Below are positions 47,201 through 52,347 of a stretch of 64,000 bases of DNA, piece after piece (position 1 is the stretch's first letter; each line of letters starts with the position of its first letter). The notes below the pieces were generated by a model. It made no database searches. It saw only the letters and a program-made list of their open reading frames with translations, and was not told where the DNA came from. A program made the translations under genes and the position numbers. Source of the DNA: an uncultured Acholeplasma sp. (GTDB lineage Bacteria; Bacillota_I; Bacilli_A; Acholeplasmatales; Acholeplasmataceae); NCBI GenBank assembly GCA_937868795.1, contig CALMNM010000151.1:1-64000 (forward strand), read 5' to 3'.

Positions 47201-47269
47201 ATTTTTCTCCAATAAAATCTAAGACTCAATCGTTTATAGGGTGAAATAAAAATAGAAAGGAAGAAAAAA

Positions 47270-48307
47270 ATGAAAAAATTAGTGATAGGATTATTCTCAC
47301 TTATCTTGGTAGCAACCCTTGCTGCATGTACTGGTTTAAATGGCGAGGTTGGTTTTGCCCTCACATCCGATAAAGACGTCATGTCTTTTCAAGCACTATC
47401 GACAGCAGAACTCTTGTCGAATATCCAACCAGCTACAACCCAGTCGATGGATGCTTCTGGAACATCCGTGCTTTCCACAGAAGTTGATGTAACGATTGAT
47501 CAAATTCAGCCTTACTTAGAATTGTTTGAACAGCTATTAACACAAAATAATGGGTTAACAGTGGTTACAGAAGTATCAGATTTACCAGAATATGAAACCA
47601 AGCAAGTCTTTACTGTCACAGATATCCTTGGCAATCAAGTGACTTATGTCATGTATTACAACACCATCATGGTAGTTGATGATAACGTTGATGAAACAGA
47701 TGAAGTGGATGAAACAGAGGATACTGAACAAGAATATCGCATTGAAGGCATCATGATCTATGGAGATATCACCTATCAAATCGTGGGTGAGTACGAAGTC
47801 GAAGGTGAAGAATCAGAGCTCAAATTTAAGTCTTATGTTGATGAACTCAACTATGTTGAATCTAAATATGAAGTAGAATCTGAAGAAATTAAGTTCGAAT
47901 TCCAAGTGGTCACCAACGGCATTGTCATCAATGAAAGCAATATCAAAATTGAAAATGAAGATGATGAGTTAAAGATTAAACTAGAATATGTCAGTGGTTC
48001 CGATTCTGGGGAGTATGTATTTAAACTTGAAGAAGAAGATGGACAGACACAATTAAAGATTGAGTTTACTTCAACAATCAATGGCATCACTACGAGTGGT
48101 GAAGCAAAAGTGAACGTCGTTGTCGATGAGTTGACGGGTGAAACATCCTATGTTATCTCAGTTAAATCTGATGATGACAATGAATATGAAAGAGAATATG
48201 ATCGTGATCTTGAAGATAGAGAAGATGACGATGACGATGAATTTGAAGACGAAGAAGACGAAAACGAAGAAGAATCCGAAGACAACGTAGAAACCGAAGA
48301 AGACTAA
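47270..48307 (+). CDS. Lipoprotein with acidic tail, homologous to the anti-sigma ectodomain
   Basis: 345 residues. Lipoprotein signal VATLAAC (Cys20) puts it on the cell surface. The body (about 85-290) is beta-strand-rich and aligns with the outer part of the anti-sigma protein two genes on: QPYLELFEQLL vs EPYLGMIENLL, LPEYETKQVFTVTDILGN vs LEDYETKLLITTYDLLGN, VDELNYVESKYEVE vs LDDLNYIESIYKVE, VDELTGETSYVISVK vs LDEITNTTSYSILVK. The last 45 residues are almost all Asp/Glu. I know no family name. AAAGGAAG precedes the ATG. It probably acts in the same signalling or stress system as the sigma factor. Confidence 0.82.
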   Translation: MKKLVIGLFSLILVATLAACTGLNGEVGFALTSDKDVMSFQALSTAELLSNIQPATTQSMDASGTSVLSTEVDVTIDQIQPYLELFEQLLTQNNGLTVVTEVSDLPEYETKQVFTVTDILGNQVTYVMYYNTIMVVDDNVDETDEVDETEDTEQEYRIEGIMIYGDITYQIVGEYEVEGEESELKFKSYVDELNYVESKYEVESEEIKFEFQVVTNGIVINESNIKIENEDDELKIKLEYVSGSDSGEYVFKLEEEDGQTQLKIEFTSTINGITTSGEAKVNVVVDELTGETSYVISVKSDDDNEYEREYDRDLEDREDDDDDEFEDEEDENEEESEDNVETEED

Positions 48308-48334
48308 TCTTTAGAAATCACATAAAGAAACCTG

Positions 48335-48374
48335 TATAATGAATTTGGGGGCAAGGCATACCTTGACCCCTCAA
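48335..48374 (+). promoter_or_regulatory. Sigma-gene -10 and 5' hairpin
   Basis: TATAAT at 48335-48340 is followed by a strong hairpin, TTGGGGGCAAGG-CATA-CCTTGACCCCTCAA (48345-48374, one or two bulged bases), without a T tract. It would be the very 5' end of the sigma transcript or a processing barrier after the lipoprotein gene. The -35 is weak (TAGAAA). Confidence 0.45.
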
Positions 48375-48397
48375 ACTCATTACAGAGGACATGACTC

Positions 48398-48919
48398 ATG
48401 AGACTTGATCACCAGGCAATTAAACGTTTAAAAGCCCATGATAATCCCACATTTGAAAAGATTTATGATGAGACAAAACGCGGTGTCTATTCGATCGTTT
48501 TTTCGGTGACTCAAAGTCATGAGTTGACACAAGATTTAATGCAAGATATTTATATGAAGATGCTTGTGAAAATAGATCAGTATAAAATTGGAACGAATTT
48601 CTTTAATTGGTTGATGCAAATTGCAAAGAACCACGCTATCGATCATTATCGAAAAGAGAAAAAAGTTTCACGGATTGACGATGAGCATATCCAACACTTA
48701 TCTTCGACATATCACGATATTCCTGATGAAAGTGATCGATTTGAGCAGATGATGGACCTCTTAGAGGACGATGAACGAATGATTGTTCTACTCAAAGTTG
48801 TCGATGAACGTACCCATCAAGAAATCGCTAAAATTATGGATAAACCTTTAGGTACAGTTTTATGGGTCTATCAAAAAGCACTAAAAAAGTTAAAAGAATT
48901 CGGAGGTGATGTGTCATGA
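48398..48919 (+). CDS. ECF-type RNA polymerase sigma factor
   Basis: 173 residues with region 2 (about 15-85: LTQDLMQDIYMKML, NWLMQIAKNHAIDHYRK) and region 4 (about 118-170: ERMIVLLKVVDERTHQEIAKIM, then GTVLWVYQKALKKLK). No region 1 or 3, as in extracytoplasmic-function sigma factors. It overlaps the following membrane protein by four bases (ATGA), the classic arrangement with a cognate anti-sigma factor. No target promoters can be named; autoregulation of the flanking lipoprotein is plausible. Confidence 0.9.
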   Translation: MRLDHQAIKRLKAHDNPTFEKIYDETKRGVYSIVFSVTQSHELTQDLMQDIYMKMLVKIDQYKIGTNFFNWLMQIAKNHAIDHYRKEKKVSRIDDEHIQHLSSTYHDIPDESDRFEQMMDLLEDDERMIVLLKVVDERTHQEIAKIMDKPLGTVLWVYQKALKKLKEFGGDVS

Positions 48920-50112
48920 AAAAGAAAGAAATCAAGATGCTAATTAAATCAACAATGAATGCACACACCCCTGACCATGCTCCTTTCATCGATTGGGCAA
49001 AAGTGGATGTCCTTCGTGCTGAAGAACCGATCACACATCCTTCACGAGTTTGGTTTTCACCCATGAAGCTTTCTTTAGGATTCTCATTGATAATTGTTCT
49101 TTCTTTAGGTTTATTCGCTTTACTAAGCAATCCAATAAATCCTGAGATCCCTACAGGTGAAGCACTTTTCTATGACCAACAAGAAGTGTTATCTGTTTCT
49201 TTTGTTTCAACTGCATCGTTAATTCCAGCTTTCGATCAACAGCTTAGTGTACCAAGTTTCCGCTTGCTTGCTGTGGATTTATCACCGATTGATCGAGTCG
49301 AACCTTATTTAGGAATGATTGAAAATCTACTCTCACAAGACCAAGGAATCACATCAACTATCATACCTTCAGATTTAGAAGATTATGAAACGAAGCTTTT
49401 GATTACGACCTATGATTTATTAGGTAATTCGATTACCCATACGTTTTATTATAATGTTGAACAATATCAAAAGAATGATGATGAAGAAACCTTTGTTATT
49501 CGAGGGATTATGGTGTTACATGGGACGACCTATCAGATGTATGGTGAAAAAACGATTGAAGATGATGAATCAATTTTGAAGGTGAAAGGCTTTCTCGATG
49601 ATTTAAACTACATTGAATCGATATATAAAGTAGAAAATGACGAATCATTGTATGAAGTTAATCGTGTCAATAACGGATCCCTTGTCTCATCCTCAATCAT
49701 CAAAATTGAATATGATGAGGAAAATGAAATTAAAATTGACATCGAAATCGACTCGATCACAGAAATTTCTACGTATGAATTTAAATATGAGCTCGATGAA
49801 GATTCACCTACAATTAAAGCTGAATACGAAGTTAACGATTTGGTCAATCAACTGACACATCAGGCTGAAATGAGAATCCGAGTCATTTTAGATGAAATAA
49901 CGAATACAACATCCTACTCAATATTGGTTAAAGATGATGAGAACGAAGAATATGAGTATGAATCGGATCGTGAAGTTCGAACTGACAAAGATGATAAAGA
50001 TGAAGATGAAGAAGATGAAGAAGACGAAATTGATGAAGAGGATGAAGAGGATGAAGAAGATGAAGATAATGAAGAGGATGACGATATCATCGATGAATCT
50101 GAGGAAGATTAA
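48916..50112 (+). CDS. Membrane anti-sigma factor with acidic surface tail (putative)
   Basis: 398 residues. A cytosolic N-terminus of about 50 residues, one membrane helix (about 51-71, LSLGFSLIIVLSLGLFALL), then an ectodomain homologous to the lipoprotein at 47270, ending in about 65 residues that are mostly Asp/Glu. The N-terminus has no His-x3-Cys-x2-Cys zinc motif, so it is not a ZAS-type anti-sigma. Role as anti-sigma is inferred from overlap with the sigma gene and topology. GGAGGTGATG lies before the start. Confidence 0.8.
   Translation: MKKKEIKMLIKSTMNAHTPDHAPFIDWAKVDVLRAEEPITHPSRVWFSPMKLSLGFSLIIVLSLGLFALLSNPINPEIPTGEALFYDQQEVLSVSFVSTASLIPAFDQQLSVPSFRLLAVDLSPIDRVEPYLGMIENLLSQDQGITSTIIPSDLEDYETKLLITTYDLLGNSITHTFYYNVEQYQKNDDEETFVIRGIMVLHGTTYQMYGEKTIEDDESILKVKGFLDDLNYIESIYKVENDESLYEVNRVNNGSLVSSSIIKIEYDEENEIKIDIEIDSITEISTYEFKYELDEDSPTIKAEYEVNDLVNQLTHQAEMRIRVILDEITNTTSYSILVKDDENEEYEYESDREVRTDKDDKDEDEEDEEDEIDEEDEEDEEDEDNEEDDDIIDESEED
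50032..50076 (+). repeat. 9-bp in-frame tandem repeat encoding acidic triplets
   Basis: Five successive copies of GATGAAGAR-like units (start positions 50032, 50041, 50050, 50059, 50068), coding Asp-Glu-Glu. Copy-number change would lengthen or shorten the acidic tail without a frameshift. Confidence 0.75.
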
Positions 50113-50220: not shown

Positions 50221-52347
50221 ATGAAAAAATTGACAGTTTTCCTGCTTAGTTTGTTACTAACGATGACATTTTTAACCGTCCAATCTCAAGCCTTTATTAA
50301 TCCGGCTTCTTTTGGACTTACATTTTCTCATCCTGCAGGTTTTTATGATGAAGGCTTTTCTTTAATACTTACCTCAAAAGAAGGGACAACCATTTACTAC
50401 ACGCTTGATTCCTCAGATCCGAACGAACTCAGTACATCCTATACGACACCTATATGGGTTGAAGAGTCATGGATTGAAGCAACAGGGGAAGAAGTGAATA
50501 TTACACCAGATAGTCAAGAAAATATTCCTGATCCTTCATATCCAATCTCCATGATACGAACCACATCACTTTATTGGATGTCACCTAAAGAGGATATATT
50601 CAAAGCCACGGTTGTCAAAGCGATTGCCATCGATGATCTCACCGGTGAAAAAAGTGAAATCATCACACAAACATACTTTGTACATCCTTTGATGCAAGAT
50701 CTTTACGCTTTTCCAATCATCAGTCTTTCAACAGATATCAATCATCTTTACGATTACGAAACAGGGATTAATATCCCTGGCATTCATTATGATCAAAATA
50801 TCGATGGAAAAGGCATCCAAAATCCTATTGGTGATAATGTAAGTTCATTGACCCATGCTGGACAAAATCGCACAGGTAACTACTTTCAAAGTGGTGATTT
50901 GTGGGAAAAACCAGTCTACGTTGAATATTTCACAACAGAAGGTATTCGCACGATTGCTCAACATGCAGGTTTAAGACTTCATGGTGGTCTATCAAGAAAA
51001 TACACAATTAAAAGTTATCGTCTTTACGCAGATGATCGATATGATGATAATGATATGTTCTACTATCCGTTTTTTAGTGATAAGGATGTGAACGAATACA
51101 AGCGGATTATCTTACGTAATGGAGGACAGACCTATCAATATACATTTATGGGTGATGCGGTTGCTCAAAGTATATTAAAACCTCTTACCCTAGATATTCA
51201 ATATAGCACACCTATTATCTTATTTATGAATGGCGAGTATTTTGGTATTCGCAATATTCGTGATCGGTTAGATCAGTACTATTTATCAACCCATTATCAA
51301 TTAGACCCAAACGATGTCACGATACTCACAGGTCATGCATTTATCGACGAAGGTAGTGTGATTGATCAAGCACACTATCAGCGTATGTATACCTATGCGA
51401 GTACAAAGGATTTATCTATCCAAAAAAACTATGAAAAAATGGCAACGTGGATGGATATGGACAATTATATCGATTATATGATCGCTGAACTTTATTTTGG
51501 TAATGTCGATTGGCCACAAAACAATATATCATATTGGCGAAAATCAGGAGGATTTCATCCGGATGCACCATATGGCCATGATGGACGCTGGCGTTGGATG
51601 ATCCAAGATCTCGATGCCTCTTTTGGTGCATCATGGGGAACTACACAAGCGGATCAAAATCCCTTTGAGAGGATGACGGGTGACTCATGGAAGACTGGTA
51701 AGCTTTTTGTTGAACTTCTTGAAAATGATCAATTTAGAGCTGCCTTTATCTATCGTCTCAATGAACTGTTATTGTCTATTTATGATGAACAACGCACATC
51801 TTCAATGGTAGAAGAAATGATCGATTTATATGAACCTGAAATGTCTACCCACATTGCACGATTCGGTTATCCAACCTCGATCGATACATGGAAATTCTAC
51901 AGTGAGCGAATGGTAGATTTTGCACTTGAACGCCCTAACTATTTACAAACTTATATGGAAAGTTGGCTTGAACTTGATCAAACACATGAAATCAATGTGA
52001 TGTATAATCAAGAACAAGGAACGATCCGTATGGGGAATCGTGTGGATTCTGATGGCATGGCATCGTTTGATGCTTATGAAGGTATACCACTCACCATAAC
52101 TGCAGAGGCTAAAGAAGGTTATTATTTTGAAGGATGGTATCTTGAAGATATGTTACTATCGCGTGAATCCACCATTTATATTCCTCCTTATGATTCTTTA
52201 AATATCACTGCAAGCTTCCAATTAGGAGAAGCCCCTGATATAAATGATCCTACACCATATCTTGGATGGGTGATCACATCCTCACTCATGACACTAGGAT
52301 TAGTTTCTACACTGTTTTATCTGATCAAGACGCATAAAAAAAATTAA
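50221..52347 (+). CDS. Large surface CotH protein with chitobiase-like and InlB-repeat domains
   Basis: 708 residues. Signal peptide (1 to about 24), then a chitobiase/hexosaminidase C-terminal-type domain (about 35-150, EGTTIYYTLDSSDPNE), a CotH kinase-like region (about 200-560: HAGLRLHGGLSRKYTIKS, FGIRNIRDRLDQYYL, and the catalytic-type WRWMIQDLDASFG), an InlB-B repeat (about 605-655, YYFEGWYLEDMLL), and a C-terminal membrane helix followed by KTHKKN. It is thus anchored with domains outside. Its function is not established. It has its own upstream region after the terminator. Confidence 0.85.
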   Translation: MKKLTVFLLSLLLTMTFLTVQSQAFINPASFGLTFSHPAGFYDEGFSLILTSKEGTTIYYTLDSSDPNELSTSYTTPIWVEESWIEATGEEVNITPDSQENIPDPSYPISMIRTTSLYWMSPKEDIFKATVVKAIAIDDLTGEKSEIITQTYFVHPLMQDLYAFPIISLSTDINHLYDYETGINIPGIHYDQNIDGKGIQNPIGDNVSSLTHAGQNRTGNYFQSGDLWEKPVYVEYFTTEGIRTIAQHAGLRLHGGLSRKYTIKSYRLYADDRYDDNDMFYYPFFSDKDVNEYKRIILRNGGQTYQYTFMGDAVAQSILKPLTLDIQYSTPIILFMNGEYFGIRNIRDRLDQYYLSTHYQLDPNDVTILTGHAFIDEGSVIDQAHYQRMYTYASTKDLSIQKNYEKMATWMDMDNYIDYMIAELYFGNVDWPQNNISYWRKSGGFHPDAPYGHDGRWRWMIQDLDASFGASWGTTQADQNPFERMTGDSWKTGKLFVELLENDQFRAAFIYRLNELLLSIYDEQRTSSMVEEMIDLYEPEMSTHIARFGYPTSIDTWKFYSERMVDFALERPNYLQTYMESWLELDQTHEINVMYNQEQGTIRMGNRVDSDGMASFDAYEGIPLTITAEAKEGYYFEGWYLEDMLLSRESTIYIPPYDSLNITASFQLGEAPDINDPTPYLGWVITSSLMTLGLVSTLFYLIKTHKKN

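Follow-up and report, generated by a model that had tools for sequence, protein, structure and literature searches.

Background

The ECF (group IV) members of the sigma-70 family consist of regions 2 and 4, without region 1.1 or 3, and are about 160-200 aa long. In the RpoE/RseA/RseB system the periplasmic RseB, a LolA-like protein, guards the anti-sigma factor RseA from proteolysis and does not contain RseA's periplasmic domain. Few regulators are usually attributed to Mollicutes and their relatives and, to our knowledge, little has been described of how these bacteria sense naked-membrane damage. In a study mapping Mollicutes promoters, alternative sigma factors are mentioned generally, and not ECF factors by name (PMC5138195). 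In the SigI/RsgI system the anti-sigma factors are autocleaving and of the RsgI_M/SEAL type, i.e. Pfam PF23750 (PMC12203970). In SigV/RsiV the anti-sigma factor is a lysozyme receptor carrying DUF4163/DUF3298 (PMC5014341).

The locus analyzed here was compared with these systems. No Pfam match to RsgI_M was obtained for the proteins of the window (the whole stretch of 64,000 nucleotides that was analyzed), and DUF4163/DUF3298 was found neither in these proteins nor in the corresponding domains of 45 relatives, among the matches listed. Foldseek gave no significant match, and the LolA-like fold of RseB/MucB does not figure among the matches listed.

The three-gene locus and its host

The host is represented by a 2-Mb draft genome, and among named relatives Acholeplasma/Tenericutes MAGs are the closest. 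This genome yielded no penicillin-binding transpeptidase, in keeping with the absence of a cell wall in the Acholeplasmataceae (PMC10868615); a site-2 protease gene (Peptidase_M50) is present. Three genes follow one another on the (+) strand, encoding a lipoprotein, an ECF sigma factor and a single-pass membrane protein. The lipoprotein (47270..48307, 345 aa) has the lipobox LAAC with Cys20, a domain that we call domX at residues ~33-300 and an acidic tail at ~305-345. The sigma factor (48398..48919, 173 aa) is matched by the Pfam families Sigma70_r2 (2.4e-13) and Sigma70_r4_2 (2.2e-09) and by the NCBIfam model TIGR02937 sigma70-ECF (81 bits for a cut-off of 42.9), and carries Asp82/Arg85 in region 2.4; having only regions 2 and 4 of sigma-70 in its 173 aa, it belongs to the ECF type. 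Its gene overlaps by 4 nt that of the membrane protein (48916..50112, 398 aa), in which domX forms the ectodomain (~85-345) and is followed by an acidic tail (351-398).

The membrane protein consists of a positively charged cytosolic N-terminus of ~50 residues, one transmembrane (TM) segment at ~52-72 and a large outer part; in the membrane-anchored domX homologues the TM segment starts within residues 40-75. Its gene place, cytosolic N-terminus and single TM segment are those of a membrane anti-sigma factor. It does not carry the ZAS motif HxxxCxxC, as residues 1-50 contain no Cys. The sigma/anti-sigma pairing put forward in the preliminary description is supported by genome context: a sigma gene lies directly upstream in 67 of the 69 membrane-anchored domX proteins, so that homologues without a sigma gene are far from being the majority. 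The exceptions are loci L072 and L244, the latter at a contig edge. The membrane protein is a predicted anti-sigma factor, which would bind and inhibit this sigma.

Downstream of the triad lies a gene for a CotH-kinase protein with a C-terminal TM segment (50221-52347; PF08757, 1.8e-36). It was rejected as a part of the module since it adjoins the triad in only two relatives, on different sides, and is probably a mere neighbour.

A domain shared by the lipoprotein and the anti-sigma factor

A BLASTP comparison of the lipoprotein with the membrane protein extends over 339 columns with 38% identity (E=1e-48), the acidic tail making up part of this alignment; the homology proper covers ~200-250 residues, to which the Asp/Glu-rich tails are added. 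Once trimmed of its tail, domX aligns over 45 relatives with a mean column identity of 31%. AlphaFold models of domX reach a pLDDT of 83.4 for the lipoprotein and 84.7 for the anti-sigma factor, and both have the same layout, i.e. one helix followed by a meander of 13-14 consecutive strands. The homology over about 200 residues, noted in the preliminary description together with the Asp/Glu runs, is therefore confirmed by alignment and matched in the predicted structures.

The initial impression that this domain has no named family also held: searches of Pfam, NCBIfam and PDB sequences, with single proteins and with alignments, gave nothing above cut-off. Scattered sub-threshold matches to I-set, FlgE_D2 and NOA36 (the last one on the acid tail) were rejected as compositional. 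Foldseek against the PDB returned no significant fold match to domX, the best E-values being 0.03 and 0.04 with a TM-score of ~0.2; the porin-like 4ghb, the lipoprotein 4fvs and OspA all remained below significance.

Distribution and evolution of the module

Related loci were gathered with an alignment of the sigma factor as query. Of 395 genomes in the class, 114 contain domX; when 245 genomes were drawn from the whole phylum, the 44 domX matches all fell in this same class. One contig labelled Clostridia (L117) also carries the set. Conserved triads were found in many genomes, far beyond chance, with three main layouts: lipoprotein-sigma-anti-sigma (33 loci), sigma-anti-sigma-lipoprotein (15) and sigma-anti-sigma followed by a lipoprotein with RsgI_M instead of domX (15). 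Expanded clusters precede a single sigma/anti-sigma pair in L216 and L217, with two domX lipoproteins or with an RsgI_M and a domX lipoprotein. There are also orphan domX lipoproteins (family f12: L229-L232, L242), several of them acid-tailed, which lack both a neighbouring sigma gene and a promoter motif of the kind described below; domX can therefore work apart from the circuit.

In phylogenetic trees the domX of lipoproteins and that of anti-sigma factors do not separate into two clades: such a split is rejected with an AU p of ~1e-83, at least 4 changes are forced, and a tree constrained to group the lipoproteins is worse by 199 log-likelihood units. Those of the Acholeplasmataceae, of both kinds, group in one clade (99/97), and the pair was therefore re-matched within that family. 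Composition bias from the acidic residues may contribute. As far as can be judged from such trees, lipoprotein and anti-sigma domX have been re-matched several times. The case of genome G180 appears recent: its two domX are 53% identical, vs at most 26% to any other anti-sigma. When tested locus by locus, concerted evolution holds for G180 and not for the window, where the lipoprotein is no closer to its own anti-sigma factor than to others (rank 11 of 47).

A conserved predicted promoter ahead of the lipoprotein gene

A predicted ECF-type promoter precedes the lipoprotein gene (47209..47236, + strand), with the -35 element CCAATAA (47209-47215), a 15-nt spacer and the -10 element CGTTTA (47231-47236). 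This is the only exact motif match within the window. Comparison of the loci shows CCAATAA-N15/16-CGTWTA before the lipoprotein gene in almost all Acholeplasmataceae triads; its position is kept in nearly all relatives (14-37 nt ahead of the gene) and, in more distant lineages, the motif persists with one or two changes. An element of the -35/-10 type expected next to an ECF operon is thus predicted by motif comparison. A stricter form, CCAAYAA-N14-16-CGTWTA-N4-GT, gave 39 matches in 101 genomes vs 8 for the reversed control, and 24 of the 39 are located directly upstream of a domX lipoprotein gene. The motif also precedes lipoprotein genes not shown beside a sigma gene (L237 and L238, as well as L215 and L245, which are each at the end of a contig).

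Of the four promoter matches in the own genome, two fall within ORFs and were set aside as chance. The sigma motif also precedes a second gene, which encodes an unnamed 170-aa protein with two TM segments (C106:32645; L127:2146-2703), and it is kept before homologues of this gene in several members of the genus. This putative second target agrees with a reading in which the lipoprotein is an effector only, a protective or structural surface protein whose common ligand binding comes from duplication and exerts no feedback; a sigma-type promoter would suit any effector of a regulon, and the orphan domX lipoproteins without sigma fit as well. Against it, the lipoprotein almost always adjoins the sigma/anti-sigma pair and is the recurring target, and one would not expect an unrelated effector to show repeated re-matching of the domain. 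We consider this reading quite improbable.

A housekeeping-like -10 box, TATAAT (48335-48340), and a strong stem-loop (48344-48375) are located just upstream of the sigma gene on the + strand. The RNAfold energy of the stem-loop is -16.9 kcal/mol vs about -5.4 in shuffles, and stem-loops of different sequence occupy the same place in most Acholeplasmataceae triads. The stem-loop comes immediately after the box, where the sigma/anti-sigma mRNA presumably begins, and is perhaps an mRNA stabiliser.

A paralogous module with another promoter

The own genome contains just two sigma factors of this kind, that of the window (CGTTTA) and that of a paralogous module, L207 (C139:2211-4967). The latter belongs to what we call class B, i.e. 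a sigma factor, a domX anti-sigma factor and an RsgI_M lipoprotein. PF23750, the central domain of RsgI, is found on class B lipoproteins (best E 3.4e-29); by profile comparison it is unrelated to domX (hhalign probability 0.6%). In C139 the promoter CCAATAA-N15-AGTATA is present before both the sigma gene and the RsgI_M lipoprotein gene. The first -10 base is T or A in 16/16 RsgI_M lipoproteins tabulated; L102 and L149, with C at this base, are class B exceptions.

This base goes along with region 2.4 of the sigma factor: Asp82/Arg85 are associated with C and Asn82/Asn85 with T. Residue 82 is Asp with C in 43/46 cases and Asn with non-C in 29/30, the covariation not being significant on the tree, where only ~3 supported independent contrasts exist. 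From the conserved promoter, the other -10 base of the paralogue and the tracking of this base by sigma residues 82/85, the sigma probably has the lipoprotein as its main target. The conserved ECF-type promoter before the lipoprotein gene and its apparent base-specific separation from the paralogous module are the new elements of this comparison.

The exchange of lipoproteins in class B also bears on another role for the lipoprotein, that of a co-regulator which would bind the anti-sigma ectodomain through domX-domX contacts and guard it against proteolysis, as RseB does for RseA. The RsgI_M domain that replaces domX on class B lipoproteins is fused to the anti-sigma factor itself in L093, L096 and L098, which suggests that the ectodomains of the two proteins cooperate; the many-stranded fold common to both proteins and their repeated re-matching are also in line with such contacts. 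The Foldseek matches listed include no RseB/LolA-like fold, however, and a constitutive guard would need no sigma-type promoter as its conserved promoter. This co-regulator role is in our opinion unlikely, though worth keeping in mind.

Acidic tails

The Asp/Glu fraction of the last 40 aa is 0.70 in the lipoprotein and 0.85 in the anti-sigma factor. Among the other ORFs of 100 aa or more within the window none reaches a tail acidity of 0.35, and in related loci all 229 neighbouring ORFs stay below 0.4, so that the tails do not simply reflect genome composition. At least 50% Asp/Glu in the last 40 residues is found in 26/42 domX proteins, and tail acidity covaries between lipoprotein and anti-sigma partners (rho 0.86, the rows not being independent). 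In many conserved triads the acidic tail is absent or its place is taken by one rich in His/Gly/Pro; it is lacking in the L034 lipoprotein, L046, L052, L087, L088, L090 and L209-L214. In another family (L050-L054) His/Gly-rich tails lie beside an acidic stretch, as in GHHGHGNDDE, a possible sign of metal binding.

The preliminary description had suggested a response to surface charge, Ca2+ or antimicrobial peptides. A pair of acidic tails measuring cations, surface charge or cationic peptides would agree with the restriction of these tails to domX proteins, with their covariation between partners and with a membrane that is probably naked in a genome without PBP transpeptidase. Yet triads with the same promoter exist whose tails are not acidic, or are His/Gly-rich as in L050-L054; the tail is hence not the defining sensor element. 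By this comparison the acid tails are lineage-specific; sensing of charge, Ca2+ or peptides is therefore speculative and is not supported by our data, and the tails are very unlikely to be the sensor.

Proposed mechanism and comparison with known systems

The computed features, i.e. gene order and its conservation, the shared domain, the lipoprotein promoter, its separation from that of the paralogue and the re-matching of domains, lead us to lean slightly towards an ECF sigma/anti-sigma switch that would regulate itself and have as its main conserved product its own sensor ectodomain, copied onto a lipid anchor and acting in negative feedback. Basal sigma and anti-sigma would come from the housekeeping promoter that separates their genes from the lipoprotein gene, and we infer that the short cytosolic N-terminus of the anti-sigma holds the sigma. 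A surface signal on domX would free it, probably via regulated intramembrane proteolysis. Free sigma would then transcribe the lipoprotein gene, and read-through would raise sigma and anti-sigma. The domX of the lipoprotein would bind the same ligand or surface state, withdrawing the signal from the anti-sigma factor, with negative feedback and probably protection as the outcome, in one step. The idea that the lipoprotein mimics or competes with the sensor domain, already present in the preliminary description, gains indirect support from the conserved sigma-type promoter and the repeated re-matching, the binding itself being putative.

More generally, this could be a widespread, unnamed class of surface-sensing modules in wall-less or thin-walled Bacilli, in which the sigma's product would be a tethered duplicate of the sensor domain, re-matched by duplication or conversion and insulated by its promoter from an RsgI-type sister; we regard this extension as possible rather than probable. 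The module is a conserved candidate sensor of naked-membrane damage, with a defined promoter and a domain family unnamed in the libraries. If the sensor domain is truly copied as the main product of the regulon, it would be a clean case of feedback by molecular mimicry, and two insulated versions in one genome would form a natural system for studying ECF -10 specificity. No matched sensor/lipoprotein pair of such kind was found described in the open-access literature searched.

By analogy, the module is expected to work like the known switches made of a sigma factor and a membrane anti-sigma factor (RsiV, RsgI). With RpoE/RseA/RseB it has in common an extracytoplasmic partner encoded alongside the anti-sigma factor; the window lipoprotein shares the outer domain of the anti-sigma, whereas RseB does not share that of RseA. 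As in SigI/RsgI, the sigma factor is paired with a single-pass anti-sigma having a cytosolic N-terminus and a large ectodomain, and the C139 module of the same genome even carries RsgI_M, but on the lipoprotein; unlike SigI/RsgI, the window sigma is of the ECF type and domX is found on both anti-sigma and lipoprotein. SigV/RsiV likewise couples an ECF sigma to a membrane anti-sigma with a ligand-binding ectodomain, as that of the window presumably is, and the type of ectodomain seen in RsiV occurs in other secreted proteins too. The difference is that the window cluster also encodes a matching lipoprotein, under a promoter of the sigma type.
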